DNA from: Clostridium sp. Marseille-P299
GTDB taxonomy: Bacteria; Bacillota; Clostridia; Lachnospirales; Lachnospiraceae
Assembly (NCBI RefSeq): GCF_900078195.1
Contig: NZ_FJVE01000007.1
Coordinates: 1,116,001 to 1,180,000, forward strand
Reading direction: 5' to 3'
Length of the DNA stretch: 64,000 nucleotides
The notes beneath the pieces are model-generated. The model did not search any database, was not told the origin of the DNA, and was given only the letters and a program-made list of their open reading frames with translations. This document shows, one piece after another, positions 42,927-62,164 of the stretch; position 1 is the first letter of the stretch, and each line of letters begins with the position of its first letter. Both the position numbers and the translations under genes were made by a program.

Positions 42927-43484
42927 ATGTCAGAAGCACTGATTACTAAAAAGGCGATAGCCCAAGGATTAAAAGAATTAACAAAGTCAAAGTCATTTAG
43001 TAAAATAACAGTTTCCGATATAACGAACAGCTGTGGTTTAAATCGTCAAACTTTTTATTATCATTTTCAAGATAAATATGAATTACTAAATTGGATTTAT
43101 TATAATGAAGGATTTTTGCCTGTTATTGAAGGGATAACTCTTGAAAACTGGCATGAAAAATTATCAATTTTATTTACACATATGAAAGAAGAACAAACCT
43201 TTTTTAGTAATACGATAAAGGCGGATGAGACTTGTTTTAAAGACTATCTATTTAATATTACTGTCACTTTGTTTGAAGAGGCAATTGAGGCAGTGGATGT
43301 AGAGCGTGTATTAAAACCAGAAGATCAGAAATTTTTTGCTTCTTATTTTGCATATGGAATTTGCGGTACCGTTATTTCATGGGTTGAAAAAGGAATGAAA
43401 GAGCAACCCGAACAATTAGCCAAACGTTTGAAATATTTGGCGACTAGTTGTGAAAAGTTAGCTTATGAACGATTTTTATTATAA
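42927..43484 (+). CDS. TetR-family transcriptional regulator (DhaS-like)
   Basis: The 185-residue protein has a typical TetR N-terminal helix-turn-helix (KITVSDITNSCGLNRQTFYYHFQDKYELLNWIYY, residues about 24-57 in total) and a C-terminal all-helical dimer and ligand domain of the type found in DhaS-like regulators (FFASYFAYGICGTVISWVEKGMKE). Its target is unknown; the neighbouring small gene and oleate hydratase are candidates because TetR regulators often sit beside fatty-acid stress genes. Start has TTAGGGGAG at a slightly long spacing. Confidence 0.85.
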   Translation: MSEALITKKAIAQGLKELTKSKSFSKITVSDITNSCGLNRQTFYYHFQDKYELLNWIYYNEGFLPVIEGITLENWHEKLSILFTHMKEEQTFFSNTIKADETCFKDYLFNITVTLFEEAIEAVDVERVLKPEDQKFFASYFAYGICGTVISWVEKGMKEQPEQLAKRLKYLATSCEKLAYERFLL

Positions 43485-44138: not shown

Positions 44139-45938
44139 ATGAATAAAAAGTATTTAAAAAAGAAGTATAAAAAAATGTGTAGAAGTTATAAAAAGAGAAA
44201 TGTTTTAATACTAGGTGCAATGGTAGGAGCAGTTACCGCAGCAACCGTTTATGCGAATAAGAAGATGAATAAGTGTAAGACTCAAAAATGTAAGAACTCA
44301 AAAATATCAAATAAGAGAACTTATACGAATTTAGGAAATGGTAGTTCAAAGGATAAAAGTAATCGTCAATTTTATTTTGTTGGAGGCGGATTAGCTTCTT
44401 TGGCAGGTGCAGCATATCTAGTAAGAGATTGTGGTGTAGAGGGTAAGAACATTCATATTCTTGAAGGGATGAAAATTCTTGGCGGTAGCAACGACGGTGC
44501 AGGTAACGTTGATCAAGGATTTATATGCCGCGGTGGTAGAATGTTAAATGAAGAAACTTATGAAAACTTTTGGGAACTTTTCTCTTCCATACCATCTTTA
44601 GATGTTAAAGGAAAGAGCGTAACAGAAGAAATTTTGAATTTTGATCATCTACATCCAACCCATGCACAAGCTCGTTTGGTTGATAAAAATGGTAAAATTT
44701 TAGATGTAAAGAGCATGGGATTTAATACCGCAGATCGTTTGGCCCTTGGAAAATTAATGATTACGCCAGAAGAAAAACTAGATGATATGACGATTGAAGA
44801 TTGGTTTGCGAAAACACCACACTTTTTTGAAACAAATTTCTGGTATATGTGGCAAACAACATTTGCTTTTCAAAAATGGTCTAGTTTATTTGAATTCAAA
44901 CGTTATATGGAACGTATGATATTTGAATTTTCACGGATTGAAACACTGGAAGGTGTAACACGTACTCCATATAACCAATATGAGTCAGTAATTCTACCAT
45001 TAAAGAGCTATTTAGATTCTCATGGAGTTGATTTTAGTATAAATGCAACGGTCACAGATATTGATTTTGCTGATGACGATACGATAACAGCAACAGCCAT
45101 TCATCTTGAAAGGGATGGAAATGAAGAAGTCCTTGTACTAAATGAAGGTGATCTTTGTTTTATGACCAATGCTTGTATGACAGATAGCGCATCTTTAGGT
45201 GATTTGTACACACCAGCAACCTATGAAGCAAATCGACCAATTTCAGGTGAACTTTGGAGTAAAGTTGCAAAGAAGAAAGAGGGGCTTGGAAATCCTGAGC
45301 CGTTTTTTGGACATCCTGATGAAACGAATTGGGAGAGCTTTACAGTAACAATGAAAGGAAATAAATTATTAAAATTAATCGAAGAATTCTCTGGAAATAT
45401 CCCAGGTAGTGGAGCACTTATGACATTTAAAGATTCCAATTGGTTAATGAGCATTGTAGTTGCAGCGCAACCTCATTTTAAAAATCAGCCAATGGACACT
45501 ACAATCTTTTGGGGCTATGGTTTATATACCGATCGTCTCGGTAATTATGTAAAGAAATCAATGCGTGATTGTACCGGTGAAGAAATTTTGACCGAATTAC
45601 TCCACCATCTTCATATGGAAGAACATATGGATGAAATTATGGAGAGTGTAGTGAATGTGATTCCATGTATGATGCCATATGTTGACGCACAGTTCCAACC
45701 ACGTAAAATGACAGACCGCCCGAAAGTGGTACCAGAAGGGTCTACAAACTTTGCGATGATTAGCCAGTTCGTTGAAATACCGGAAGATATGGTATTTACA
45801 GAAGAATATTCGGTTAGGGCTGCAAGAATTGCAGTCTATACCTTAATGGGCGTAAAAAATAAAAAAATATGTCCAGTAACACCATATAAAAAGGATCCAA
45901 AGGTTCTTTTGACTGCTCTAAAAACAGCGTATCGTTAG
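44139..45938 (+). CDS. Oleate hydratase (MCRA family) with N-terminal membrane anchor
   Basis: The 599-residue protein hydrates the cis-9 double bond of unsaturated fatty acids to 10-hydroxy acids, using FAD as structural cofactor. Family hallmarks: FYFVGGGLASLAGAAYLVRD (FAD motif), GGSNDGAGN, GFICRGGRMLNEETYENFW, FWYMWQTTFAFQKW, MTNACMTDS and the C-terminal QFVEIPEDMVFTEEYSVRAA. Known enzymes start about 20-25 residues before the FAD motif; this one has about 77, with a Lys/Arg-rich start, a hydrophobic span (VLILGAMVGAVTAATVYA, residues 23-40) and a basic linker. So it is probably membrane-tethered, placing it near its lipid substrate. TGGAGG lies before the ATG. Confidence 0.9.
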   Translation: MNKKYLKKKYKKMCRSYKKRNVLILGAMVGAVTAATVYANKKMNKCKTQKCKNSKISNKRTYTNLGNGSSKDKSNRQFYFVGGGLASLAGAAYLVRDCGVEGKNIHILEGMKILGGSNDGAGNVDQGFICRGGRMLNEETYENFWELFSSIPSLDVKGKSVTEEILNFDHLHPTHAQARLVDKNGKILDVKSMGFNTADRLALGKLMITPEEKLDDMTIEDWFAKTPHFFETNFWYMWQTTFAFQKWSSLFEFKRYMERMIFEFSRIETLEGVTRTPYNQYESVILPLKSYLDSHGVDFSINATVTDIDFADDDTITATAIHLERDGNEEVLVLNEGDLCFMTNACMTDSASLGDLYTPATYEANRPISGELWSKVAKKKEGLGNPEPFFGHPDETNWESFTVTMKGNKLLKLIEEFSGNIPGSGALMTFKDSNWLMSIVVAAQPHFKNQPMDTTIFWGYGLYTDRLGNYVKKSMRDCTGEEILTELLHHLHMEEHMDEIMESVVNVIPCMMPYVDAQFQPRKMTDRPKVVPEGSTNFAMISQFVEIPEDMVFTEEYSVRAARIAVYTLMGVKNKKICPVTPYKKDPKVLLTALKTAYR

Positions 45939-48465: not shown

Positions 48466-50332
48466 GTGCGCCACGAAGGCGTGTCAAAGTAGCGTAGCTA
48501 CTTGAAGACAGCTATGCTGTGCAGATGATGGTGGTAGGCCCACCGAAATCGCCATACAGGTGGAGGTTTCAAACTACCTTAAGGTGCTGTAGTCAAAAGC
48601 TATGGTATTGAGCGTTAAGGAAAAGGCAGTAATAAACTGTCAAGTGTGTATTAAGGAGATGAAGGAAAAGTGAACCACTTACGAAAATGTCGTAAGCGTA
48701 CAGATTCCATCAAAACCAGGGGGTAGTCGTTAACCTGGGATAAGTCTAGAGGAAACCTGTTTACTGTCTAGATGGTGGACGGCATAAAGGTGGCATGAAC
48801 TTAATACAGGCGTCTGTACGGAACGTGGGAACCCACGGGCTGATGTTAAGGGAGTATATCAAGCGGAAGAACCGTAAGATAAGAGTACCAATGCAGTCAT
48901 GGGGGCAGATTGGGTTGTAGTAGTGAGGAAGTTTCTGTAATGGGAATGGAGCGAAGAACCCGAATTATTCCGTTTCAAGAATAAGTCAACTTTGAAAGGA
49001 GGAGGAACTTATGCAAGAAACAAAACCATATAGTATTTCAAAACGAGCAGTAATTGCTGCTTATGAAAGAGTAAAAGCAAACAAAGGAACGTACGGAGTA
49101 GATGACCAATCTATCCAAGACTTTGAGAGAAAACTTAACAATAATCTTTATAAGATTTGGAACAGAATGTCATCGGGAAGTTACTTTCCAAAACCTGTAA
49201 AGGCAGTAGCAATTCCAAAGAAAAATGGAGGAACTAGACTACTAGGAATTCCGACAGTAGAGGACAGAATTGCACAAATGGTTGTAAAGTTGTATTTTGA
49301 ACCAAATGTTGAGTCCATATTTTACGAAGATTCCTATGGTTATAGACCAAACAAATCTGCAATACAAGCACTTGATGTAACAAGAACGAGATGTTGGAGA
49401 AAAGATTGGGTACTGGAGTTTGATATAAAAGGTCTCTTTGACCATATCAGACATGATTATCTTATGGAAATGGTGAAGCGACATACAAAAGAGGAGTGGA
49501 TTCCTCTCTATATTGAACGATGGCTAGTTGCACCATTCCAGATGGAGGACGGAACACTAGTTCCAAGAACTTCGGGAACACCTCAAGGTGGAGTGATTAG
49601 TCCAGTACTAGCGAATCTATTTCTTCATTATGTATTTGATGATTTTATGGCAAAAGAGTTTCCTTCAATTCCTTGGGCGAGGTATGCAGATGATGGAATA
49701 GCACACTGTGCATCGCTCAAACAGGCAAAATATTTGCAACGTAGACTAGAAGAACGTTTCATGCGCTTTGGATTGGAGTTAAACCTAGATAAGACAAGGA
49801 TAGTATACTGTAAGGATGATGACCGTAAAGGAAATCATGAATATACGTCCTTTGATTTTCTAGGATATACCTTTCGGCCAAGGCACGCAATGAATAAGTA
49901 TGGAAAGTTCTTTACAAACTTTCTACCAGCAATGAGTGAGAAAGCGAAGAAATCCATACGGAAAACGGTTAGAAAGTGGAAGTTGCAACATAAGCCAGAT
50001 AAGGAGCTACGGGATTTAGCAAATATGTTTAATAGCCAAATACAGGGTTGGATTAACTACTACACCCATTTCTATAAGTCGGAAATATATGATGTCTTGC
50101 GATACATCAATCAACGGTTGGTGTATTGGGTACGTAGGAAATATAAGAAACGTAATGCAAGACGAAGAGCAGAATACTGGCTTGGAGAGATAGCGAAACG
50201 TGATAGAACTTTGTTTGCACACTGGAAATTTGGTATACTACCATCGGTTGGATAATGGGAGCCGTATGAGCTGAGAGGTTCACGTACGGTTCTGAGAGAG
50301 ACTTAGGGGGAGGTTCCCTAGGTCTACTTACT
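48466..50332 (+). mobile_element. Group II intron B, inserted in intron A's reverse transcriptase gene
   Basis: The 5' end GTGCGCCACGAAGGCG follows GCAGATGATT, and the 3' end follows domain V (50259-50292, GAGCCGTATGAGCTGAGAGG and ACGTACGGTTC) and domain VI (about 50300-50332). Joining the flanks gives GCAGATGATT plus GCAATGTATAC, which reads ADDCNVYVKSK in frame, the normal continuation of a group II reverse transcriptase. The 1867-bp element carries its own intact reverse transcriptase, so it appears complete. The 3' boundary could be off by one base. Confidence 0.88.
49011..50255 (+). CDS. ltrA: Group II intron reverse transcriptase/maturase of intron B
   Basis: The 414-residue protein shows the reverse transcriptase series: GTYGVDDQSIQDFE (RT0/1), IPKKNGGTRLLGIPTVEDRIAQ (RT2), DSYGYRPNKSAIQAL, VLEFDIKGLFDHI (RT3), SGTPQGGVISPVLANLFLHY (RT4), ARYADDGIAHC (catalytic RT5) and FLGYTFRPR (RT7), then a basic maturase X domain ending IQGWINYYTHFYKS and WVRRKYKK. 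There is no HNH endonuclease domain after it, as in several bacterial lineages that use replication forks for priming. AAAGGAGGAGG precedes the ATG. The protein should splice and mobilise intron B. Confidence 0.93.
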   Translation: MQETKPYSISKRAVIAAYERVKANKGTYGVDDQSIQDFERKLNNNLYKIWNRMSSGSYFPKPVKAVAIPKKNGGTRLLGIPTVEDRIAQMVVKLYFEPNVESIFYEDSYGYRPNKSAIQALDVTRTRCWRKDWVLEFDIKGLFDHIRHDYLMEMVKRHTKEEWIPLYIERWLVAPFQMEDGTLVPRTSGTPQGGVISPVLANLFLHYVFDDFMAKEFPSIPWARYADDGIAHCASLKQAKYLQRRLEERFMRFGLELNLDKTRIVYCKDDDRKGNHEYTSFDFLGYTFRPRHAMNKYGKFFTNFLPAMSEKAKKSIRKTVRKWKLQHKPDKELRDLANMFNSQIQGWINYYTHFYKSEIYDVLRYINQRLVYWVRRKYKKRNARRRAEYWLGEIAKRDRTLFAHWKFGILPSVG

Positions 50333-50919
50333 GCAATGTATACGTGAAATCAAAGAAATCAGCAGAGCGAGTTATGAAAAGTATCACGAAGTTTATAGAA
50401 AAGGACTTGAAGCTTAAAGTTAACAAAGAGAAAAGTAAGGTAGACCGATCATGGAAACTAAAATATCTAGGATATACCTTTTACAATAAGAAAGGTGAAA
50501 TGGGAATAAGAGTACATCAAGTTTCTGTTAAGAAGTTAAAAGGAAAACTTAAGAGTATCACTGGAAGAAGTAACGCAATGAGTATGGAACTCAGAGCCAT
50601 TAAACTTAAACAATTAATTGTTGGCTGGATAAGCTACTTCAAACTAGCAGATATGAAAGGTACTTTACGAGAACTTGATGAGTGGCTAAGAAGACGTTTA
50701 CGTCTTTGTTACTGGAAACAGTGGAAAAAGATTAAAACGAAACATGATAACTTAGTTAAACTAGGGGGAAAGAATTGGAAAGCATGGGAACATGCGAATA
50801 CTAGGAAAGGCTACTGGAGAATCTCCAATAGCCCAATCTTAAATTCAACTCTTACCAATAATTATCTTAGAGAACAAGGTTTTATAACACTTAGTGAAAG
50901 ATATTCGCAAGTAAGGTAA
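50333..50919 (+). pseudogene. Intron A reverse transcriptase, C-terminal fragment
   Basis: This is the second exon of the intron A protein, resuming CNVYVKSKKSAERVMKSITK just after intron B. It carries the thumb and maturase X domain: KYLGYTFYNKKGEMG, LKQLIVGWISYFKLADMKG, LDEWLRRRLRLCYWKQWK and KGYWRISNSPILNSTLTN, ending about 20 bp before domain V of intron A. There is no HNH domain. It would only be translated with its N-terminal part after splicing of intron B, and that part is deleted. Confidence 0.85.
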
Positions 50920-51267
50920 TCTTATTGAACCGCGTATACCGAGCGGTACGTACGGTGGTGTGAGAGGACGGAAATTCAATTAATGAATTTCCTCCTACTC
51001 GATTGTATCTATAAATGAGAGTATGATACATATTATTTATAGATTAACAGGTGTTAATTGTGAATTTCGCTATAAATATATATGAATATCGAATTTTTGC
51101 TATCTTGATATAAAAACAATGTACAATTAAGATATAAATCAATAGAGTTCATGTATATTTACATTGAACTGTTAAGGTTGATAGAGAAGAGCTGGAAAAT
51201 ATCTGATAAAAACTGTTTATAAAGTGGAGGGTTAAGTAGTGGGAAAAAAATACATATAAAATATATA

Positions 51268-52038
51268 GTGTTTATGCTTGTATTATTAATAATAGCTTCG
51301 GGTATTATGTATAGCCAATTTAGACGTGGTAAAAACATATATCTTGAATATGGAGATGATTTTTCCGATGTTAAACTATATACCGAAGAGGGTGAAAAAA
51401 TAAAAGGATTAAATAATGACAAAACTAATCTAGTATTTTATTTGTCTGATAGTTGCCAACCTTGTATGGAACTCCTGAGATTTATTTCGAGTATTGATAC
51501 TATGGAGTCATTATCTGAATATTCCATAAGTTTAGTGTGGATAGATGAGATACCTACTAAAAAAATTAATAATTATAATTTTAAAAATGTTACCAACTAT
51601 ACTTTAAAAGGAAAAACACAATTTGTAGGTTATACTCCATATATTTATGTGATAAAAGATAACATAGTTATATTTGAGACAAGCAAAGCAGAAGATATTA
51701 TTAAACTAATATTAAACAATGCCGTTTCTCCTAATATTAAGGCTTTAACATTTAAAGATATTAGCAATAAATATAATTGTATACCAAATGAAACCGCTTT
51801 AATTTTTTTGACAGAAAACTGCGAATCATGTTTAGATATTAATTCTTATATAGAGACTATTAAAGATAAATATATGAATTTTATATTTATTACTAATTAT
51901 GATAATTATGAAGAAGATAAATTTATTAATGATAGTTTTAATGTATATAATCAGATATTTGAAGTTAAGCTCTATCCGAGTATTTATGCACTTAAAGATA
52001 GTACTGTTACAGAAATTGATTGGAATAGTCTACACTAA
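51268..52038 (+). CDS. Membrane-anchored tandem thioredoxin-like protein
   Basis: The 256-residue frame starts at a GTG in the membrane span (FMLVLLIIASGIMYSQF). Two thioredoxin-like domains follow: the first with SDSCQPCMELL (about residue 62) and GYTPYIYV, the second with TENCESCLDIN (about residue 184) and LYPSIYALKD, i.e. two CxxC sites each with a cis-Pro candidate. So it is an extracellular redox protein held by an N-terminal anchor. A GTG at 51239, seven bases after GGAGGG, would give a better start (MGKKIHIKYIV) but needs a one-base shift in a run of seven A at 51244-51250. It lies 27 bases before the cysteine-rich peptide gene. It is AT-rich compared with the left half of the window. 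Confidence 0.8.
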   Translation: MFMLVLLIIASGIMYSQFRRGKNIYLEYGDDFSDVKLYTEEGEKIKGLNNDKTNLVFYLSDSCQPCMELLRFISSIDTMESLSEYSISLVWIDEIPTKKINNYNFKNVTNYTLKGKTQFVGYTPYIYVIKDNIVIFETSKAEDIIKLILNNAVSPNIKALTFKDISNKYNCIPNETALIFLTENCESCLDINSYIETIKDKYMNFIFITNYDNYEEDKFINDSFNVYNQIFEVKLYPSIYALKDSTVTEIDWNSLH

Positions 52039-52064
52039 TATAATTTTTAAGGAGGTTATATTTT

Positions 52065-52352
52065 ATGATAAATTTTAAAAAAGCAGGTATTGTTTTATCT
52101 TTGGTTGGGTTGATGACTTTTATGCAAGCAGGAACTGTCGCACAAGCTGCAAAATCTTGTGGTAATTGGGATACTTATAGTTCAAGTACATATTGTGATA
52201 CGAGTGATGGATGCGGAGCATTTTGGCTTCAGGATACTAGTAAGACAACTAAATATCAAAGCAGAATTTGTTCAGAAACTAGTTCGGATAATGGTACTGT
52301 AACTATTACTAAAGAATACCAGACCGTTGTAAGTAAAAATGGATGTTGCTAA
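52065..52352 (+). CDS. Secreted six-cysteine peptide precursor (unknown family)
   Basis: The 95-residue product starts after TAAGGAGG and has a clear signal peptide: basic MINFKK, hydrophobic core to about residue 20, and AQAA before residue 30. The mature part of about 66 residues contains six cysteines (residues 32, 44, 50, 69, 94, 95), ends in GCC, and is rich in Ser, Thr and Gly. Up to three disulfides are possible. There is no double-glycine leader, lipobox or membrane helix. Its neighbours are redox proteins and a MacB-type ABC system, which suggests a disulfide-stabilised exported peptide such as a bacteriocin-like toxin or signal. I do not recognise the family. Confidence 0.75.
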   Translation: MINFKKAGIVLSLVGLMTFMQAGTVAQAAKSCGNWDTYSSSTYCDTSDGCGAFWLQDTSKTTKYQSRICSETSSDNGTVTITKEYQTVVSKNGCC

Positions 52353-52391
52353 TTTAGAGTATTGGTTCAAATTAATAAAAGAACATAATAA

Positions 52392-54059
52392 CCTGAATTA
52401 TTCATGTAAGTAAATAACAAAGTTAATTTACTGATCTTTATATCAGCCCGTTGTTTTTTACTTTGATTTTATGATTTTACTTTTTTTAACAGTCAAAAAG
52501 AAAGGAATTTAACTAAGGTATTATTACTCTCTTTTTTTAACTGCCAATGTGCAACTCACTATCTACTCTAATAACCTTTGTAGTGGTCTTAGTGAATGTA
52601 TTTTTGATAAAACCTCATTAAATTCATTTTTATAAGGGCAACTACTGCATAACTTAAAGATTAGATAGCGTGATTTCTTCGTTAGCCTTGCTGCTATTTT
52701 TATAAGTTTTAAACGAATTGTATCAACTTGAAGATGTCTCATCTTCTTTGGTAAAACCATTCGACGAAACCAATTGAATATGTTATATGTTAACATATTG
52801 ATTTGGAGTCGATTTTGATTAGTTATGAAATCATGATTTGGCATAGCATTCATATGAAAGCCTAGTTTTGCTTCTTTAATCATGTTTTCCATAGTCCCTC
52901 GATTACAATAAAAACGTAAAATATCCTGGGCAGGAATCTCCATATTTGTAACGATGAATGTATAATTAGCTACCATTACTCCATATGGTTTTTCAATCTT
53001 GCAAACAATTCTACGAGGATATGCCCAGCTATCAGCAGCATACATGAATTCAGTATAAGTGCAAGCGTAATCAACAAGATTATTGTTTAATGATTCCATA
53101 AAATCATAAACATCACCTTCAACCATCTTACGTAAGCGTGCTGATTCCTTCATACGAATAGCAAAACTCACACCATTGGTCTCTAACTTTTCATAAAGCA
53201 TAACGTCTGCGAAACCACTATCACCTCTTAAGAATAGTTGAGTATCTGGATAATTATCCATATATTCCAATAGGAGAGGATACAAAAAATTATGTGCGTC
53301 CTTTGAAGTGTAAGTATTTCCTGGTCTTAACTCAGCCTTTAATAAATCCTTAGTTAACCCATCAAATACTAATAATGGATGATATCCAACGTTTTGATAA
53401 TGAGTATTATAGCTACTACCTTCTTGCGAACCATACGTAGTAAATGAAGTAGAGTCGACATCAAGAATGATCTGTTGTGGTTGTTCATAAGAATAAATCT
53501 TCTCACGTAATAGTTGATGAAGAACATCCATCTGCACAATACAGATGTCATCAAGACGATTCATAAAACGGCTTATTGTAGGTTGAGATGCCAATCTTTC
53601 TTTCGAAAGAATTTGAGTAAATATAGGATCAAAAGCCAATTCATCCGCATCATCATCTTGAAAGTACCCAGCGATGTTTTGAAAGATACGTTGCATGAGT
53701 ATGGATGAATCAGAATGAATACGCTGTTTTGTATCAGTACTAAAATTCTCAGCAATGATAGAGGGGATCTTTAGTTTATTTATATATTCATAGAGTAAAA
53801 GTAATCCAGAATCGGAGGAAAGTTCTCCTCCATTAAAATTTATTTTAATACGGTTATTGCATTCTAAGTGTAAATCCTGTAAACTAGACATATAAGGTTT
53901 CTCCTTTGTTTGATTTTGGGTCGCACTTAAATTTTAACAAAGAAGAGGCCTTTTTTCTATATCTAGATTTCACTTTTTAGGTGAAAGTAATAAATGTATG
54001 AAACTCAGTATTAAAAAGGTATTGTATCATGCTAACAAGGTCAGCATGAATAATTCAGG
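52392..54059 (-). mobile_element. IS1380-family insertion sequence
   Basis: Terminal inverted repeats CCTGAATTATTCATG (52392-52406) and complement (54045-54059) bound 1668 bp carrying one transposase on the minus strand. A 4-bp direct repeat ATAA flanks it (52388-52391 and 54060-54063), as expected for the family. It separates the peptide gene from the propeller lipoprotein gene; without it the gap would be about 130 bp. Confidence 0.88.
52563..53891 (-). CDS. IS1380-family transposase
   Basis: The 442-residue protein is intact. The N-terminus has the family's FNGGELSSDSGLLLLYEYI segment. Catalytic DDE regions are visible as IILDVDSTSFTTYGSQEG, LFLRGDSGFADVMLYE and the Glu region YCNRGTMENMIKEAKLGF, followed by a C-terminal NRLQINMLTYNIFNWFRR. 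It is the only gene of the element, which may still be active. Confidence 0.92.
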   Translation of the reverse strand: MSSLQDLHLECNNRIKINFNGGELSSDSGLLLLYEYINKLKIPSIIAENFSTDTKQRIHSDSSILMQRIFQNIAGYFQDDDADELAFDPIFTQILSKERLASQPTISRFMNRLDDICIVQMDVLHQLLREKIYSYEQPQQIILDVDSTSFTTYGSQEGSSYNTHYQNVGYHPLLVFDGLTKDLLKAELRPGNTYTSKDAHNFLYPLLLEYMDNYPDTQLFLRGDSGFADVMLYEKLETNGVSFAIRMKESARLRKMVEGDVYDFMESLNNNLVDYACTYTEFMYAADSWAYPRRIVCKIEKPYGVMVANYTFIVTNMEIPAQDILRFYCNRGTMENMIKEAKLGFHMNAMPNHDFITNQNRLQINMLTYNIFNWFRRMVLPKKMRHLQVDTIRLKLIKIAARLTKKSRYLIFKLCSSCPYKNEFNEVLSKIHSLRPLQRLLE

Positions 54060-54124
54060 ATAATTAATCAATAAAAAAATAAAAAAACTATTATATTAGT
54101 GTAGAAACTATAATGGAGGAGATT

Positions 54125-55075
54125 ATGAAGAGAAGGATAATATTGGAATTGATTGTTATAGTTCTAGTATGTACTGGATGTAAAATTAACAGTGATGGTG
54201 AAGTAAGTTCTAGTCTTAAAATTAATTACATTAACTCAGAATATTTGGAGAAAACGGTGTTTATTGATAATGATGAATTAAATTATCCGACGGATATTGT
54301 TTGTACAGAACAGTTAATATATGTAGTGAATCAAGGTAATAGTAATATCTTAACTTTTGATCTCAAGGGTGAGTTAATTGATAGTTTTGGGAAATATGGA
54401 CAAGGTAACTCAGAATTCACTAACCCACAAGCAATATCAATAAATGATGAAAATATATTTGTAGTAGATAGAGATAGTTGTAGAATACAAGTTTTTGATA
54501 AGAAATATAACTTTATTAAAGAGATAATAATAGATTCATTGAAAAACTCGAATGATGTTCATGCATTAGATTTAGAAGTAGATAATCAGGGGAATATATA
54601 TCTAACGGTAGAGGGGGTAATACCGAAATTATTAAAGATATACAAAATTAATTCCGATGGTGATATTAAAAAAATAGGGAAAGAACTTATTGGTGTTATG
54701 GACAGATCAACAGATGATGAAATTTTTTTCACACCAACTTATGAAGTGTTTGAGACGAAAGAACAGCTAGGATATCGGAGTGGAAAAAGTTTTGTTAGTA
54801 TAATAAATAATTCTGTAGAAAAAAAGTTTGATTTAACAACCAAGTATACACCTACATCAATACATCTTACAGAAGATAGAATCTATTTATTTTCTAATTA
54901 TATGAAGCAAATTGACGAATTTTTATTCGATGGAAGTTATGTTAGTACATTATTTAGGGAAAACCCTTCCGATGAGAATGATGGGATGACACATATGGAT
55001 ATGTATAAAGACTGTTTTTATATGACAGATAGCAAAAAGAATGTAATATATATGTTTAAACCACAAGGAGATTAA
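54125..55075 (+). CDS. Six-bladed beta-propeller lipoprotein (NHL-like)
   Basis: The ATG at 54125 follows TGGAGGAG and gives a 316-residue lipoprotein, MKRRIILELIVIVLVCTGC (lipobox CTGC). NHL-like blades follow: LNYPTDIVCTEQLIYVVNQG, FTNPQAISINDENIFVVDRD, and VHALDLEVDNQGNIYLTVEG. An upstream in-frame ATG at 54113 is part of the ribosome binding site. The protein is surface-exposed and could bind the secreted peptide or a partner; that is inference. It lies four bases before the first permease gene. Confidence 0.8.
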   Translation: MKRRIILELIVIVLVCTGCKINSDGEVSSSLKINYINSEYLEKTVFIDNDELNYPTDIVCTEQLIYVVNQGNSNILTFDLKGELIDSFGKYGQGNSEFTNPQAISINDENIFVVDRDSCRIQVFDKKYNFIKEIIIDSLKNSNDVHALDLEVDNQGNIYLTVEGVIPKLLKIYKINSDGDIKKIGKELIGVMDRSTDDEIFFTPTYEVFETKEQLGYRSGKSFVSIINNSVEKKFDLTTKYTPTSIHLTEDRIYLFSNYMKQIDEFLFDGSYVSTLFRENPSDENDGMTHMDMYKDCFYMTDSKKNVIYMFKPQGD

Positions 55076-55079
55076 CAGA

Positions 55080-56222
55080 ATGTATATTCTTACAATTATG
55101 GTGCGTTTTCTGAGACATGACAAATTGAAATTTATATCGTTAAGCCTTTGTCTAGCACTTGGAATGCTAATAGGTACTATGTTTGTGTGTCAAGCATATG
55201 AGGCATGGTATAGTTATTTTGATTACGAAGAAAGCATAGCTTATGATCAGATAATCATTGTACAAACAGAGGACAATTTAATTAAACTAAGTGAAGATGC
55301 TGACATATATGAAAGTATAAAGTTTATTAATAATGTTGCTCCGTATAGATATTATGTCACAGATTTAATTACATTTAATCAAGAAATTATGATAGGTGTA
55401 TCTGTAATAGGTACAAATACTGCATTTTATAACATGTTTAATGATTATGAATACATTGTAGGAAGATGGTTTAATTCTGATAAAGAATGTGTTATTGGTG
55501 AAAAAATAGCAAATCGATCTAAGATTAGTATTGGAGATACTATAATTATAAATAATTATAGTTATAAGGTAGTTGGTATTAATAATATTATGAAATATAG
55601 TGAAATAATATTCATTGATGATACAGCGGGCTCAATTAGATATGATAGTACGAGTATATTTGATAGTTCAACCTATAAAGCAGGTTTTAATAATATGCAA
55701 AAACCTCAATATTATTATGTTTATTTGAATGAGAAAGTGACAGATGATAATATGCATACTATACAGAATTATATAATAAAAAAATATAAGTCAGGTAATT
55801 TTATTAAGGGTCGTAACCTAATGATTGATGAGAAAAATCAGTTGTACAGTGGTTGGGGGATGTCTATTATCTTATCTATTGTATCCATCTTCTATGGTGT
55901 TATTAATATACATAATATTGAAAAATTTTATTATATTAAAAGAAAAAAAACATATGGTATTTTACTTGCTCATGGCGCTACAAAAAAACAACTATTTACA
56001 GCTATTTATTTCGAGAGTGGTATTATAACGTTATTATCATCCGTCATACTCTTTATAGGGGTCTATCTTTTAAGTATATCCAGAATAAATTATAGAGTTT
56101 CAATGAGAGTTGATTTATATGTTTTTGCAACTATATTTTTAGCTGGGCAAATTTATTCATTGATTTACTCGTGGATAAACACAAGGTCTTTACAAAAACA
56201 ATCAATTAGAACTATATTTTAG
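55080..56222 (+). CDS. FtsX/MacB-like ABC permease 1
   Basis: The 380-residue protein has an N-terminal span (LSLSLCLALGMLIGTMFVC), an extracellular domain of about 200 residues (with IGVSVIGTNTAFYNMF and VVGINNIMKYSEII, typical of MacB periplasmic core), and three C-terminal spans including the FtsX segment IKRKKTYGILLAHGATKKQL. This fits a type VII ABC permease, which couples ATP use to work outside the membrane. It probably pairs with the next permease as a heterodimer. The codon use is extremely AT-rich. Confidence 0.85.
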   Translation: MYILTIMVRFLRHDKLKFISLSLCLALGMLIGTMFVCQAYEAWYSYFDYEESIAYDQIIIVQTEDNLIKLSEDADIYESIKFINNVAPYRYYVTDLITFNQEIMIGVSVIGTNTAFYNMFNDYEYIVGRWFNSDKECVIGEKIANRSKISIGDTIIINNYSYKVVGINNIMKYSEIIFIDDTAGSIRYDSTSIFDSSTYKAGFNNMQKPQYYYVYLNEKVTDDNMHTIQNYIIKKYKSGNFIKGRNLMIDEKNQLYSGWGMSIILSIVSIFYGVINIHNIEKFYYIKRKKTYGILLAHGATKKQLFTAIYFESGIITLLSSVILFIGVYLLSISRINYRVSMRVDLYVFATIFLAGQIYSLIYSWINTRSLQKQSIRTIF

Positions 56223-56241
56223 TTTGAAAGGATTAAATTAT

Positions 56242-57405
56242 ATGGAGTTCATGTTTAAAAGGATATTTCAAAAGTTAAGAAGTAATTTTAGAATATACAG
56301 TTTAATTGTATTGCAGATTGCTATTGCCATTTTAATTTTGAATGTAAGTTTAATACTTTCGGTAAATTCAGATAAAAAATTAGAACGTTTATTGGAAGAA
56401 AATAAAAATGAAGAATTTCATATATTAGTAAAAGACATGAATGCTTCGTTATATGATTATAGTGAAAACTCAATTGATGATAATTTCACTGAAAGTAATT
56501 ACGAGGCGATTCCATTTTCTACTGAGGATTTAGATGAGTTATCTAAAGTTCTATCTAATATAGATTGGAAAATAGAGGTTGTTTTAAATATAAACTTTTT
56601 ATTAAAAGATAATACAATAGAATCAATTGGTGCAGTTTATACTACAGGTACTAAGGAAGTCTTTATGAATGAGAATACATATAATATATTATGTAATGTA
56701 ATTAAGACAATAAATATTAATGATTTCCCATATGAAATAAAAGAAGATAAATTGGTTGCCTTAGATGGTAAAGAGTATCAAGTAAATATTCAGAATAGCA
56801 ATGACTCAAATATTTACCTTCCTTACGAGTTATATTATAAACTTTATAATCCAAGTCATCTATTTGATACTCGCTTAACGATTGTATTAAAGGACTTTAG
56901 TTTTGATAACGGAGATATCTTAATTAAAGCACAGACTCTACTTTCCTCTAATAGTAATTTTATATATTATTTAAACAATGAATTTTATGACATGTTAAGA
57001 AGTCTTCATAGTGTAGCGGAGGAGAATACAGTTATAAGATTTATATCCTATATTTTACTTATCATCACAACGATTGGTTTAACTGGTGTATTTATTTTGA
57101 TTATAAATGAAAGAAAAAAAGAGGTTGCCATTAATTTAGCATTAGGCTCTAGCAAAAAAAGAGTCTGTATTGAGTGTTATATTGAGTTAATGATGCTAGC
57201 TCTAACAGGATGTACCTTAGGACTATCCTCTAATATAATATTTGGGATTAAGGATTTAAACTACATTAATGTATCATTACGACCAAATCCATATGTAATA
57301 ATAGTTCAACTGATAATTATATGTGGGATAGTTATGATTTCAATGATTCCAGTAATTAAAACAGTAACTATGTTAACACCTATGGAAATATTAAGAGTTG
57401 AGTGA
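56242..57405 (+). CDS. FtsX/MacB-like ABC permease 2
   Basis: From the ATG at 56242 (nine bases after AAAGGA; a TTG 18 bases upstream is weaker) the product has 387 residues, MEFMFKRIFQKLRSN. It has an N-terminal span (YSLIVLQIAIAILILNVSLI), an extracellular domain to about residue 265, and three C-terminal spans with the FtsX motif NERKKEVAINLALGSSKKRV. It forms the likely heterodimer with the preceding permease. The ATPase gene begins eight bases after its stop. Confidence 0.85.
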   Translation: MEFMFKRIFQKLRSNFRIYSLIVLQIAIAILILNVSLILSVNSDKKLERLLEENKNEEFHILVKDMNASLYDYSENSIDDNFTESNYEAIPFSTEDLDELSKVLSNIDWKIEVVLNINFLLKDNTIESIGAVYTTGTKEVFMNENTYNILCNVIKTININDFPYEIKEDKLVALDGKEYQVNIQNSNDSNIYLPYELYYKLYNPSHLFDTRLTIVLKDFSFDNGDILIKAQTLLSSNSNFIYYLNNEFYDMLRSLHSVAEENTVIRFISYILLIITTIGLTGVFILIINERKKEVAINLALGSSKKRVCIECYIELMMLALTGCTLGLSSNIIFGIKDLNYINVSLRPNPYVIIVQLIIICGIVMISMIPVIKTVTMLTPMEILRVE

Positions 57406-57412
57406 GGTAAAA

Positions 57413-58087
57413 ATGATAAAATTGAGAGAAATTTCTAAAACTTACAGAGGAAAAAATATTTATACGGAAGCAATAAGTAAACTTAGTTTCAAAGTAAATG
57501 ATGGTGATTTTGTTGCTGTTATGGGACGTTCAGGAACAGGCAAAACTACTCTTTTAAATATTATTGGTTGTATGGATAGTTTTGATAGCGGAGAATATTA
57601 TTTTAATGGTAAAAATCTACTAGAATTAAATAGCAATCAATTAGCTAAGTTTCGTAACCAAAATATAGGTTTCATTTTTCAATCTTTTAATTTAATTCAA
57701 GATCTAAATTCAATTGATAATGTTGAGTTACCATTGGGGCTGGCAAAAATTGAAAAAAATGAAAGAAGGGAAAGAGCATTAGAGCTACTTAAAGAAGTTG
57801 GTTTAAAGGAAAAAGCTCATCATAAGCCGGCAGAGCTATCAGGGGGTCAGCAACAAAGAGTGGCCATTGCTAGGGCATTAGCGAATCGTCCTAAAGTCTT
57901 ACTAGCTGATGAACCAACAGGAAATTTAGATGAAAAAAGCGGATTTCAAATAATGGAATACTTAAAAAAATTAAATAAAGAGGAAAAAGTTACAATTATT
58001 ATGGTAACACATGATATATTAATTGCTGAATATGCGGATTATATAGTAGAATTACGAGGGGGGAAAACAGTTTGCAAAAGCGTCTAA
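57413..58087 (+). CDS. ABC transporter ATP-binding protein (MacB/LolD type)
   Basis: The 224-residue ATPase starts MIKLREISKTYRGKNIYTEA after GTGAGG; an upstream TTG is less likely. It has Walker A GRSGTGKTT, the Q loop FIFQSFNLIQDL, signature LSGGQQQRVAIARALA, Walker B VLLADEPTGNLDEKSG and the switch His in MVTHD. The LolD/MacB subgroup matches its FtsX-like permeases, so the three form one type VII ABC complex. Such complexes in Firmicutes act in peptide sensing and resistance or peptide export. It overlaps the thioredoxin-CcdA gene by 16 bases. Confidence 0.92.
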   Translation: MIKLREISKTYRGKNIYTEAISKLSFKVNDGDFVAVMGRSGTGKTTLLNIIGCMDSFDSGEYYFNGKNLLELNSNQLAKFRNQNIGFIFQSFNLIQDLNSIDNVELPLGLAKIEKNERRERALELLKEVGLKEKAHHKPAELSGGQQQRVAIARALANRPKVLLADEPTGNLDEKSGFQIMEYLKKLNKEEKVTIIMVTHDILIAEYADYIVELRGGKTVCKSV

Positions 58088-58828
58088 GTAATGTAATCAT
58101 ACTTTTGTCATTCATATTAATAATTTGCAATAGCAATGTCTCTGAAGCTGCAAGTAATGGGATTGAAAAAACAATAATATACTTTTATTCACCTACATGT
58201 AGTTCTTGTATTGATGTTAAAAATTACTTTAAGGGTTTAAATGATGATATCAATATTATATCTTACGATATTACTGAAAATAATAATAAGGCACTATTAA
58301 ATTCCTATTGTGAATATTATAAGGTTGCTGAAGGAAAATTTGGCGTTGTACCCATAGTGTTTGTGAGCGAAGGATATTTATTTGGTAGAGAGGAAATTGA
58401 AGAAAAATTAATTGATATTTTAGAAAATAAATACTCTATAAATACGCCATTGTTAAAAGAAGGTAATTATAATCATGATATTAAAACGTTTGAAAGTATA
58501 AATGCAGTAACTATAGTTATAGCTGGAATAGTTAATGGACTTAATCCCTGCTCTTTATCAATGTTAATATTTTTATTATCGTTATCATCGAGTAAAAAAG
58601 AAAAGATTGTAAAAGTAGGAATATCGTTTATTTTAGGTAAATTTATCGGATTTTTGTTACTTGGTGTTGTATTCTTTAATATGCTAAATAGTATTAATTT
58701 TATGTTAATAAGTGTTATTACTAAATATATTATTGTTATATTTTGTTTATTATTTATAATTTTAAATATATATGATTATATTGTAATTAAAAAAAATAAA
58801 TACGAAAAAATTAAATTAAAACTTCCAA
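58072..58828 (+). pseudogene. Thioredoxin plus CcdA-like membrane protein, 5' part (split by IS256-family element)
   Basis: A TTG start after GAGGGGGG opens a signal-like span (VIILLSFILIICNS) and a thioredoxin domain with YFYSPTCSSCIDVKNYF (CxxC near residue 43) and GVVPIVFVSEG (cis-Pro). Membrane spans follow with the CcdA/DsbD-like NPC motif GIVNGLNPCSLSMLIFL (about residue 158). At KLP the frame enters the insertion. Joining 58828 to 61425 restores an open frame of about 374 residues, so the host gene was intact until the insertion. The protein would carry electrons across the membrane to the external thioredoxin domains. Confidence 0.82.
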
Positions 58829-58933
58829 GATAGTGTAAAATATTTTGTGTAAATAAAAATAGAGAAGTTCCATCTGACATGGTAAAATGTTTAACGACGA
58901 AGAAAAACATAACCAAGAAAGAAGGACTTCCCT

Positions 58934-59913
58934 ATGACTAATAATAACAAAAATCAAAAAGAAAATCTAGACTTAAACTCTTTTTTTGAAGAGTATATTC
59001 TTGGTCTATTAAAACAAACCATGGAAACCTTGATGAAGGAAGAACTCACTAACATTCTCCAGTACAGTAAATATAGCTACGAAGGACATGGTACTGGCAA
59101 TTCACGCAACGGATACTATACCCGTAATTATGAAACCAAATACGGTCTGATTGAGAATCTTAAAATTCCTCGTGACCGTAATAATGAGTTTGAACAACAA
59201 CTCATTCCACCATATGCAAGAAGAGATGATTGGCTAGAAACCATGATCATCCGCATGTATGCAAGTGGAGTATCTACACGTGAAATTGCTAACATCATTG
59301 AAAAACTTTATGGAAATTCTTATAGTGCGGCTACAGTAAGTAATATCACTGATGTTGCTCTTGAAGAAATTGAACAGTGGCATAAGCGTCCTCTAAAGAA
59401 GAGGTACAGTGTCATTTATATTGATGCTTTACATCTTAAATTAAGAAGAGATACAGTATCAAGTGACGCCGTTTACTTCATTTTAGGTGTCGATGAAGAT
59501 GGATACCGTGAAGTATTAGACTTCTTTATCGGTGTAAATGAAAGCGCTTATGTTTGGGAGGATAATCTTCGCCAGATAAAAGAACGAGGCGTAGATGAAG
59601 TTCTCCTCTTCGTCATGGACGGTCTCTCTGGACTTGACGATGCTGTTCATAGAGTATATCCAAAAGCGGATATTCAACGATGTATTGTCCATAAAGTTCG
59701 TAATGCAATTCGTAGTGTTCGTAAGAAAGATATCAACGATTTTACAGCTGATTTAAAAGTTGTATACGAATCTCCAAACCTAGAGCAGTGTAGAGCAGCT
59801 TTAGACGAATTTGCTGTTAAATGGAGTAAATCTTATAAACGTGTAGTGGAATCCTGGTTAAATGACGAGGACTTATTCACATACTATAAATACCCTGTTC
59901 TAGTCAAGCAAAA
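58934..59913 (+). pseudogene. IS256-family (mutator-type) transposase, N-terminal part
   Basis: The segment starts MTNNNKNQKENLDLNSFFEE and carries the mutator hallmarks ARRDDWLETMIIRMYASGVSTREIA, YIDALHLKLRRD (first catalytic Asp), LFVMDGLSGLDDAVHRVYPKADIQRCIVHKVRN (second Asp and C-x2-H). It reads through FTYYKYPVLVKQN and is then cut by the IS3-family element. The C-terminal part resumes at 61138. Confidence 0.9.
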
Positions 59914-59935
59914 TTGTAACACTAGTGTATAAAAT

Positions 59936-60826
59936 TTAAGCAGCTCTAGCCTGAGCTGGTGTTTTCCCTTTATTATACTTGTGTGGTCTTACATGATTAT
60001 ACCAAATATAAGCAAATTCATTTACTGCAGCATCTAAGTCCTCTTTCGTTTTATATGAAAAATGATTCATACGTTCTGATTTTAACGTATTATAATAACG
60101 CTCCATAGGAGCATTATCATAAGGACATCCTGCTCGGCTCATACTTTGTTGTATATGAGCCTTTTCACAGAATACATTGAATTCTTGTGAAGTGAATTGG
60201 GTTCCTTGGTCGCTATGAAGGATTAATCCTCTCTTTGGCTTATGACGCTGAATAGCAATTTTAAGTGTTGCAATCGCTAATTCAGATGTTATATGATCCC
60301 CATTTAAACTAGCAATCACTGAACGATCAAATAAGTCAAGAATCGTACAATTATAACGAACTGTACCATTTTCTAAAAAAAGATAGGTGAAATCTGTACA
60401 CCAAACCTTATTTTTGGCTCCAACGACAAAGTTTTGATTTAAGAGATTAGGATAAACTTTATGAGCTTTTCCTTTCTTATAATCAGGCTTTTTACGTCTT
60501 GTAATAGAACGTAGACCGAGCTCTTTCATATATTTATGGATGGTTGAATCACTATACTTATATTTACGTTGTTCTAACAAATCACGCATCATTCTGTAGC
60601 CTGGAGCACCGTTTGCTTCATGGTAAATTTCAACGATTTTACGTTGCGTTTCAGCTTTTTGAGCATGATAAGTAGACTTACGATTCTTTAAGTAATTATA
60701 GTAAGCATTTGGTGATAGGTTGAATTTCCGTAAAAGCCAACGTAGGCCAAACGTGTTGCAATTTTTCTGGATAAACTGGTAAACAACTAATCGATTTCCT
60801 TCGCAAAGAATGCTGCCGCCTTTTTT
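59936..60826 (-). CDS. IS3-family transposase OrfB (integrase domain)
   Basis: The reading frame from the slippery site covers LVVYQFIQKNCNTFGLRWLL, the HTH_21-like GAPGYRMMRDLLEQRKYKYS, and the rve catalytic core: WCTDFTYLFLENGTVRYN (Asp), LILHSDQGTQFTSQEF (Asp), DNAPMERYYNTLKSE (Glu), ending AYIWYNHVRPHKYNKGKTPAQ. It is probably made as an OrfAB fusion by -1 frameshifting on AAAAAAG (60820-60826) rather than from the internal ATG at 60592. All catalytic residues are present, so the element may be active. Confidence 0.9.
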   Translation of the reverse strand, partial: KKGGSILCEGNRLVVYQFIQKNCNTFGLRWLLRKFNLSPNAYYNYLKNRKSTYHAQKAETQRKIVEIYHEANGAPGYRMMRDLLEQRKYKYSDSTIHKYMKELGLRSITRRKKPDYKKGKAHKVYPNLLNQNFVVGAKNKVWCTDFTYLFLENGTVRYNCTILDLFDRSVIASLNGDHITSELAIATLKIAIQRHKPKRGLILHSDQGTQFTSQEFNVFCEKAHIQQSMSRAGCPYDNAPMERYYNTLKSERMNHFSYKTKEDLDAAVNEFAYIWYNHVRPHKYNKGKTPAQARAA

Positions 60827-61077
60827 AAGAACTCATTCTCCTTTTTCAATTCTTCAAGTTGACGTCGAAGACGTTTGTTCTCCTCGTAGGAATCGGTCTC
60901 TTGTTTGATGATAGGATTTGTTTTGCATTCTTTACGTCGTTGTTGTAGCCAGTATGTGATCGTACCACTTCCTAAGTTGTACTCTTCAGTTAAACTCTTT
61001 TTTGTACGTCCTTCTTCCAGATAAAGACGCAATATTTTTTCTTTTAGTTCAGGTTCATATTTATTATAAGTAGCCAT
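60787..61077 (-). CDS. IS3-family transposase OrfA (helix-turn-helix)
   Basis: The 96-residue protein MATYNKYEPELKEKILRLYL has a helix-turn-helix (RTKKSLTEEYNLGSGTITYW) and a leucine-zipper-like C-terminal coil (KRLRRQLEELKKENEFLKKAAAF). The frame ends past the AAAAAAG slip site shared with OrfB. OrfA binds the element ends and regulates transposition. Confidence 0.9.
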   Translation of the reverse strand: MATYNKYEPELKEKILRLYLEEGRTKKSLTEEYNLGSGTITYWLQQRRKECKTNPIIKQETDSYEENKRLRRQLEELKKENEFLKKAAAFFAKEID

Positions 61078-61137
61078 GCTGTAATCTCTCCTTAGTTTTG
61101 TATTATTATATCAAAATTTTATACTAAGGTGTTACAA

Positions 61138-61387
61138 CTTAATTATACCAGGACACCCTGTTTCTATGCGAAAATCCATCTATACAACGAATTGGATCGA
61201 GCGCTTTAATAAAGAAGTACGTCGTCTTGTAAAAACTAAGGATGCACTACCCACAGAAGACGCATGTAGTAAACTCGTTTATTATAAAGTGATTTCTTAT
61301 AATGAATCATGGTCTACAAGAAAGCTTAGAGGCTTTGCTTGTTCATCAGATAAACTTCAGGATATGTTTACCGAAAGGTACGCATAA
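61138..61387 (+). pseudogene. IS256-family transposase, C-terminal part
   Basis: The remainder of the mutator-type transposase resumes as LIIPGHPVSMRKSIYTTNWIE and contains the catalytic-Glu helix region IERFNKEVRRLVKTKDALPT, ending WSTRKLRGFACSSDKLQDMF. It is in frame with the N-terminal part once the IS3-family element is removed. Confidence 0.88.
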
Positions 61388-61424
61388 ACTATTTACACAA
61401 AATTATTGACACTACCACTTCCAA

Positions 61425-61792
61425 ATAAGATTATATCGTTAAATCATAATCTAATAAAATATATAGAGAAAAAGAATAAAAACAAGTTGTTAGTAGTGTT
61501 CTATTTGATATTAGGACTTTTAATAAGTTGTGGGGAGTTTCTTTGTACTGGACAAATATACTTATCAACAATATTAACTATGATTAATAATAATATTTAT
61601 AAACAGAAAGCTATTTTTTACTTTATTATTTATAATTTAGCATTTATATTACCATTGATGATAAGTGTTTTTGCTATATTTAAGCTTAGAGATACTTTTG
61701 AAGTATCAAATTTTTTAGTAAATAAAATGAAATATATAAAACTTATAAATGTAATATTTTTTATAATAATAATTATTTATAACATCCTATAA
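61425..61792 (+). pseudogene. Thioredoxin plus CcdA-like membrane protein, 3' part
   Basis: Continues the gene begun at 58072 after the 8-bp target repeat: NKIISLNHNLIKYIEKKNKNK, then a span with the second redox cysteine pair, LLISCGEFLCTGQIYLSTIL, matching the second conserved Cys region of CcdA-type proteins. Two further spans (AIFYFIIYNLAFILPLMISVFAIF and YIKLINVIFFIIIII) follow. With the first part it gives both cysteines needed for transmembrane thiol exchange. Confidence 0.82.
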
Positions 61793-61858: not shown

Positions 61859-62164
61859 ATGAAGATTCTTAAAATATTATTTTATAATGATCAATTAGAA
61901 TTTATTGAAAAAAAATACATAAAGGAATTTAAAGTTAACGAGGAATATATTATAGAACAATGCATTTTAAGATATTCAACTAATGAGCCTTGTATAATAT
62001 ATAGGACTCTTGTGATTAATTCAACACATATTATGCTAGATGATTATTTTCGTGATATATCTAAAAGTAAAAGGGATAAGATTGAAATTAGAGAATTGCC
62101 TTATAATGTTTTTTATGCAATTGAATTTCCTGATAATGCGATGTTTTTGGAAGTCTCTATATAA
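61859..62164 (+). CDS. Uncharacterised small protein, 101 residues
   Basis: The frame starts MKILKILFYNDQLEFIEKKY six bases after AGGGAG, 66 bp downstream of the CcdA-like gene and with the same very AT-rich codon use. It has no signal peptide or membrane span, one cysteine pair candidates apart (ILRYSTNEPCII), and mixed alpha/beta character. It may be the last gene of the peptide locus, for example an immunity or accessory protein, but nothing in the sequence shows this. Confidence 0.6.
   Translation: MKILKILFYNDQLEFIEKKYIKEFKVNEEYIIEQCILRYSTNEPCIIYRTLVINSTHIMLDDYFRDISKSKRDKIEIRELPYNVFYAIEFPDNAMFLEVSI

Follow-up and report, generated by a model that had tools for sequence, protein, structure and literature searches.

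Pediocin carries a double-glycine leader and leaves the cell through a dedicated exporter, the lactococcin 972 family combines a Sec-secreted precursor of similar size to the one considered here with a neighboring ATP-binding cassette (ABC) system (lactococcin 972 itself, Lcn972, is not known to have disulfides), and in Bacteroidetes the NVEALA peptides are associated with DUF5128 propellers and TlpA. One study reports that recombinant pediocin became more potent when PedC was co-produced, its minimal inhibitory concentration falling from 1.2 to 0.4 μM (PMC4919988), and another that Bacillus is shielded against SDP, a peptide toxin that it makes itself, by the MacB-like YknWXYZ complex (PMC4887032). 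Here we analyzed a locus in Clostridium sp. Marseille-P299 that lies within a 64,000-nucleotide stretch of contig NZ_FJVE01000007.1 (positions 1,116,001 to 1,180,000, hereafter the window), in which a small cysteine-rich precursor is encoded together with thioredoxin (Trx) proteins, a beta-propeller lipoprotein and an ABC complex. We favor, with moderate confidence, reading it as an operon damaged by insertion sequences (IS) for a bacteriocin-like peptide that is secreted and disulfide-bonded and is served by a thiol isomerase of its own and by a self-protection complex made up of the propeller and a type VII ABC, the toxicity and the immunity being roles that we infer. The components, in window coordinates, are as follows.

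51268..52038, + strand: Trx2, membrane-anchored, with two thioredoxin-like domains (CQPC and CESC) and an irregular start region; a homologue lies directly before the peptide gene at locus L123 of another genome
52065..52352, + strand: 95-residue precursor with a signal-peptide-like start ending AQA↓A and six cysteines in the mature part
52392..54059, − strand: IS1380 element between the peptide and propeller genes (its transposase, at 52563-53891, scores 373 bits against the IS1380 model; 4-bp target duplication ATAA)
54113..55075, + strand: six-bladed beta-propeller (NHL/DUF5128-type) lipoprotein (PF17170, E 6.4e-10), with ATG 54125 as its likely start
55080..56222, + strand: permease 1, MacB_PCD (1.6e-14) and FtsX (1.7e-10)
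56224..57405, + strand: permease 2, FtsX (4.6e-9)
57398..58087, + strand: LolD/MacB-type ABC ATPase
58072..58828 (read through to 58833), + strand: 5' part of a Trx-CcdA fusion, comprising the Trx domain and the start of CcdA, cut by an IS
58829..61416, no strand assigned: IS256 element carrying an IS3 element inside; 8-bp target duplication ACTTCCAA
61417..61792, + strand: 3' part of the Trx-CcdA fusion, similar to Trx-CcdA of Roseburia
61859..62164, + strand: NEPC (our own label), about 100 residues with an invariant Pro-Cys, partner gene of the Trx-CcdA family

The evidence that this arrangement is more than local comes from genomes sampled within the class and the families to which named Clostridia loci belong. 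Class-wide searches with the propeller and with Trx2 (391 genomes each) found the two as neighbors in both G424 and G681. At L123 (G424) the order is Trx2, a 90-residue secreted four-cysteine peptide and the propeller, as in the window. At L126 (G545) a six-cysteine peptide is followed by propeller, FtsX, FtsX, ATPase and Trx genes, and the same six genes recur at L143 (G769, from a search of 105 family genomes); no IS lies between the genes at either locus, and after spacings of 104 and 75 bp behind the peptide gene they are separated by only −14 to +1 bp. The original prediction, that the gene set would be conserved without the IS elements, is therefore borne out by these two genomes for peptide, propeller, FtsX-FtsX-ATPase and thioredoxin, and by L123 for tandem thioredoxin, peptide and propeller; its inclusion of CcdA is not, as among the scanned loci CcdA and NEPC meet the peptide only in the window. 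The search of 105 genomes also gave L144 (G710), which retains a peptide remnant ahead of a broken propeller gene, and L145 (G759), which like the propeller locus of G681 yielded no peptide; nor was a peptide seen at L146 or L147, both added by searching 71 members of G424's family. Across 12 fetched propeller genomes, a count that leaves out G353 and 43 weaker propeller-profile genomes, two FtsX genes stood in the unit in 10 and an ATPase gene in 8; the peptide was intact in three and a remnant in one, and a Trx gene was present in six (one a fragment), including all three with an intact peptide.

A small secreted-looking open reading frame (ORF) with at least four cysteines precedes 3/16 propeller ORFs, vs 2/587 other large ORFs (Fisher p 1.5e-4, or 6e-5 once near-identical loci are collapsed), a crude count over a non-random sample of 49 loci longer than 9 kb, some of them overlapping, with the 16 propeller ORFs counted by hand. 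When whole genomes were searched with the peptides (7, 21 and 9 genomes, some shared), strong matches occurred only beside a propeller, all others having E values of at least 0.067, and presence was patchy, at 1/21 and 1/9 genomes of two genera, each being the genome already known. It had been allowed beforehand that ABC or redox genes found among unrelated neighbors would speak for a chance grouping, and the propeller-ABC module does occur without the peptide. We take most of the gene set to be a genuine operon type, of which the window holds a damaged copy.

Within the window, the features first claimed for the locus are confirmed, with some corrections. All of the named genes lie on the + strand with gaps of 26, 4, 1, −8 and −16 bp, the IS-bearing gap excepted and the propeller counted from ATG 54125; the tandem-thioredoxin protein has its two CxxC motifs, and the 95-residue precursor its six cysteines and a signal-peptide-like start, the latter judged by eye rather than by a predictor. 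Codon use is AT-rich, with GC content at third codon positions of 0.16-0.23 in the unit vs 0.25-0.28 in five other window genes, for which "extreme" was too strong a word. The Trx-CcdA fusion is present but interrupted by the IS256 element at 58829-61416, with its C-terminal part on the far side, where 61406-61792 aligns with the C-terminal half of Roseburia Trx-CcdA (37%, E 1e-16); the NEPC gene, which adjoins Trx-CcdA elsewhere and extends the unit to 62164, had been overlooked. The start of Trx2 is not clean: the GTG that, by eye, has a good Shine-Dalgarno sequence is in another frame, and from the preceding stop to GTG 51268 the reading frame of Trx2 contains no ATG, GTG or TTG. This irregularity and the two IS insertions, one of them within a gene, suggest that the window copy is decaying. 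Transposase-like genes and group II intron reverse transcriptase genes (49011-50919) lie upstream of the unit, and IS-type genes also flank the L126 copy.

A search of 5.8 billion proteins, word-based and of limited reach, returned two relatives of the window peptide (98% and 71%). Most of the relatives from the protein searches are carried by contigs 1.9-13 kb in length, though the relative P0002 is on one of up to 47.9 kb. The window peptide and P0002 are identical at 54/66 positions of the mature part and 13/29 of the signal, and the L143 peptide is 62% identical to that of L126. Mature cysteines fall at positions 3, 15, 21, 40, 65 and 66 in the window peptide, at 3, 16, 21, 39, 59 and 61 in those of L126 and L143, and at 3, 21, 39 and 59 in that of L123; since exactly Cys2 and Cys6 are missing in L123, this pattern suggests a Cys2-Cys6 disulfide in the family. 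Homology was assessed on mature parts with 5000 shuffles per pair, scored by local and global alignment. No shuffle reached the global score for any pair reported here, and the local score was reached by 7/5000 for window vs L126, 9/5000 for P0002 vs L126, 17/5000 for window vs L123 and 0/5000 for L126 vs L123; the similarity of the window and L126 peptides, as measured by these alignments, exceeds chance. The peptides of the window, L126, L143 and L123 had no Pfam or NCBIfam match reaching the cut-off, peptide searches of plasmids, phages, viral contigs and genome_contigs found no match, and neither did the L126 peptide among PDB sequences. An AlphaFold2 model built from three sequences had a predicted local distance difference test score (pLDDT) of 43 and was not used. 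Because the peptides fall below every Pfam and NCBIfam cut-off and have two relatives in the protein search, the family is likely to be missed by homology-based annotation, and the propeller genes offer a handle for finding more members.

The thioredoxin gene that ends the L143 and L126 units encodes a membrane-anchored protein whose best NCBIfam match is TIGR01295, PedC/BrcD, a disulfide isomerase of bacteriocin maturation. The proposed disulfide-isomerizing role gains from this match in L126 and L143 but not from the window's own domains. Window Trx2 matches Pfam Thioredoxin at E 0.003, below the cut-off, and has one relative besides itself (58%) in the protein search.

The ABC genes of the window have the make-up of a type VII, MacB-like system, an FtsX permease with MacB_PCD and a LolD-type ATPase, with scores of 55.2 bits to PF12704 (cut-off 27), 41.4 and 36.8 to PF02687 (25.5) and 114.5 to PF00005; the L143 permeases exceed the FtsX threshold (32.5 and 36.6) but not that of MacB_PCD (15.2). 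The window ATPase scores 238 bits against the LolD model (cut-off 307.75). None of the scanned genes of the window and of L143 matched a MacA/HlyD-type adaptor, and the propeller lipoprotein occupies that position. PADLOC, given eight proteins of the window and two of L009, returned only ABC/AAA-type ATPase matches and one weak permease match. The propeller has five relatives in the protein search besides itself, three of them good (66, 48 and 29% identity), and its profile matched 46/299 genomes at E <= 1e-6, of which three strong ones were fetched. Each of these (L070, L071 and L072) holds propeller, FtsX, FtsX and ATPase genes, with no peptide or CcdA seen. BlaI- and BlaR1-type genes adjoin the module in L070, as do genes for an ECF-type sigma factor and a zinc-finger anti-sigma factor in L071, and these two peptide-less copies look like orphan, inducible resistance. 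Propeller and permease searches in plasmids gave no useful match, and propeller and Trx-CcdA searches in viral contigs gave none.

Several variants of the module were observed alongside these. At L124 (6931-13420) and L145 (5202-11688), three propeller lipoprotein genes in tandem precede Trx2 and a pair of FtsX genes, with no matching ATPase or peptide seen adjoining. At L146 (9229-9600) a Trx2 fragment lies directly before propeller-ATPase-FtsX-FtsX, which suggests loss of the peptide side. Beside the propeller-ABC of L125 (10999-12759, G583) are a CD1871A-family small CXXC protein, a NapH-like ferredoxin and a TlpA-like lipoprotein, together an extracytoplasmic redox set; the TlpA-like gene is nearby and divergent.

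Read as a bacteriocin-like system, the parts would work as follows. The precursor would exit by Sec and be cleaved at its AxA site, and outside the membrane an anchored thioredoxin, to judge from its family and linkage, would make or shuffle the disulfides; in the window and L123 this helper would be the tandem Trx2, and in L126 and L143 a single Trx of PedC-like type. At the outer face of the membrane, the propeller lipoprotein with FtsX-FtsX-ATPase would bind the peptide, drive it off the membrane and so protect the producer, much as YknWXYZ does against SDP. In the window strain, the joined CcdA and NEPC module could keep the thioredoxins reduced for isomerization. The original prediction offered export or self-protection as the role of the ABC complex; as the precursor has a signal peptide, we dropped the complex as peptide exporter, and protection is the better reading. 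Protection also agrees with the patchy occurrence, with the copies that lack a peptide and stand near regulators of resistance type, and with the IS-type genes by the window and L126 copies.

Other accounts of the same genes were weighed. The peptide could be a secreted signal, or pheromone, with the propeller lipoprotein and FtsX-type ABC as receptor and transducer and with thioredoxins to control its disulfides. Peptide sensing by FtsX-type ABCs occurs, as in the BceAB type, and the propeller is plausible as a binding protein; the regulators adjoining the module in L070 and L071, the strong conservation of the mature part in the close pair of window and P0002, and a weak match of the L123 signal region to the N-terminus of Phr secreted inhibitors (E 0.005, 17.2 bits, cut-off 25) also point this way. 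That match is, however, confined to residues 8-26, the signal peptide, the six unit genes of L126 and L143 showed neither a kinase nor a regulator, whether of the response-regulator type or another, distant mature peptides have diverged though most cysteines are kept, and patchy presence and the PedC-like thioredoxin sit poorly with signaling, which we consider unlikely. It is quite improbable, in our view, that the peptide is instead a structural, protease-inhibitor or adhesion-type protein that needs an isomerase, with the propeller-ABC handling lipoproteins or surface proteins: peptide-less modules are common among the fetched copies, the window peptide is acidic and the ATPase is similar to LolD, but bacteriocins fit better with the PedC/BrcD-like isomerase, the smallness of the peptide, its patchy distribution and the IS genes that flank the window and L126 copies. 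A chance meeting, in an IS-rich region, of an orphan peptide with a redox module and an ABC that both serve general purposes would explain the IS and group II intron genes around and within the unit and the separate occurrence of CcdA with NEPC and of propeller-ABC; the same peptide family nevertheless precedes the same propeller family in L123, L126 and L143 with no IS between, genes overlap, and the pairing is enriched over background. These three genomes tell against coincidence for peptide, propeller and Trx, while CcdA and NEPC may have joined by chance; taken as a whole, the chance account appears highly improbable.

Some observations weigh against the bacteriocin-like interpretation that we prefer. 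The linkage comes from few genomes, two of which (L126 and L143) belong to one family, and a peptide or remnant was not found in 8/12 fetched propeller genomes, so that the ABC may have another main job. No FtsX or ATPase gene lies beside the L123 peptide, the rest of that genome not having been searched for them. The net charge of the peptides ranges from −1 (slightly acidic) in the window to +12 in L123, which does not imply one killing mode, and the pair P0002 vs L123 is weak in the shuffle test (local 359/5000, global 0/5000). The L143 and L126 thioredoxins score 56.1 bits (E 3.8e-15) and 49.3 bits (E 4.7e-13), below the curated TIGR01295 cut-off of 120, and window Trx2 and Trx-CcdA domains give no match to that model.

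The CcdA and NEPC genes have a different distribution. A Trx-CcdA scan gave 15 loci, of which L003-L009 (E <= 1e-30) were carried forward and L010-L017 were weaker. NEPC, which has no visible signal peptide, is 30% identical over 77 residues to the gene directly after Trx-CcdA in Roseburia, and its model matched 8/299 genomes of one family and 17/391 of the class, which gave 25 places beyond two genomes already known. Twenty-three of these were fetched with their neighbors, and all 23 hold Trx-CcdA, adjoining in 22 and with one gene between in L037; G328 stands outside this count, and G137 (NEPC match E 3.7e-4) has no Trx-CcdA within its 3-kb locus. Overall, 31/32 scanned NEPC places lie within 500 bp of Trx-CcdA, eight of the 32 having been found via Trx-CcdA itself. 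Neighbors include dockerin-bearing and carbohydrate-binding-module-bearing secreted enzymes with Trx2 (L003, L006 and L094, and by eye L092 and L093), AraC-type regulators by sugar-ABC genes (L036, L097) and a NifS-like desulfurase (L002, L008, L009, L039). As the propeller family was not found in any scanned NEPC locus other than the window, CcdA and NEPC are, on this comparison, a module separate from the peptide unit and a local addition in the window. An essential role of CcdA in the peptide unit was dropped, since it was not found in L123, L126 or L143; the L143 Trx only weakly matches the Trx part of the Trx-CcdA model. A cysteine desulfurase as general NEPC partner was likewise dropped, as it adjoins only in L002, L008, L009 and L024/L039 among the loci read. 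The AlphaFold model of the L003 NEPC member has a pLDDT of 86.5, and Foldseek found no match to it in the PDB at E <= 0.001. NEPC is of interest as an unannotated partner of transmembrane thiol transport, separate from the peptide question.

Two loci met in this survey, L009 (5524-12567, Lachnotalea) and L002 (10388-14533, a Roseburia plasmid), are possible clusters resembling those for ribosomally synthesized and post-translationally modified peptides, with a PqqD-M50-like fusion or M50-like protease, a small transmembrane peptide with a GKTF(S/T)G..C tail and an ABC, and further Trx, Trx-CcdA, NEPC and NifS-like cysteine desulfurase genes. Upstream in the window itself, 1-46000 is, judged by eye, a large carbohydrate-utilization island with a confirmed glycoside hydrolase family 3 (GH3) gene and, by eye, GH43, xylanase, sugar-ABC and AraC-type genes; it also encodes an oleate hydratase (44139-45938, 767 bits, cut-off 567) and, near it at 42927, a TetR-type regulator that matches the DhaS activator model.

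A literature search in one open-access collection found no description of this operon type. As a wider proposal, which we make tentatively and which could well fail, the family would be a new class of Sec-exported, disulfide-knotted bacteriocins of Clostridia, with immunity from a propeller lipoprotein on a two-permease type VII ABC, and the orphan immunity copies, some by BlaI/BlaR1 or ECF sigma regulators, would be an unrecognized resistance layer in Lachnospiraceae and other Clostridia. Should the peptide be a bacteriocin, anaerobes would have yielded a disulfide-rich class that comes with its folding helper, and also an immunity architecture that is new; in such organisms, disulfide formation outside the cell is an interesting problem in itself.

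Compared with described systems, the unit shares a small secreted peptide, a DUF5128-type propeller and a thioredoxin with NVEALA loci, but PF14055 found no match in the window peptide or in the three peptide-bearing genomes (0/3), with Bacteroides ihuae positive as control. The window ATPase scores 225.4 bits against TIGR03608 of the lactococcin 972 group, below its cut-off of 254.85, and the Pfam and NCBIfam lactococcin 972 models gave no match to the window, L126, L143 or L123 peptides or to the window permeases. Pediocin-type operons with PedC/BrcD, and likewise sublancin with BdbA and thermophilin with BlpGst, resemble the unit in encoding an oxidoreductase of the thioredoxin fold alongside a small disulfide peptide that is secreted; unlike them, the present unit has a Sec-type signal, up to six cysteines, a MacB/FtsX-type ABC with a propeller lipoprotein, and a Trx below the PedC cut-off. 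With YknWXYZ it shares a MacB-like ABC that, on the reading preferred here, would protect against an endogenous peptide toxin, and it differs in having no MacA/HlyD-type adaptor among the scanned genes, two FtsX permeases, a propeller lipoprotein and genes placed beside that of the peptide. Although it falls short of the PedC cut-off and no MacA-type adaptor was matched, the unit comes nearest to pediocin-like operons in its folding helper and to YknWXYZ in its presumed protection device.

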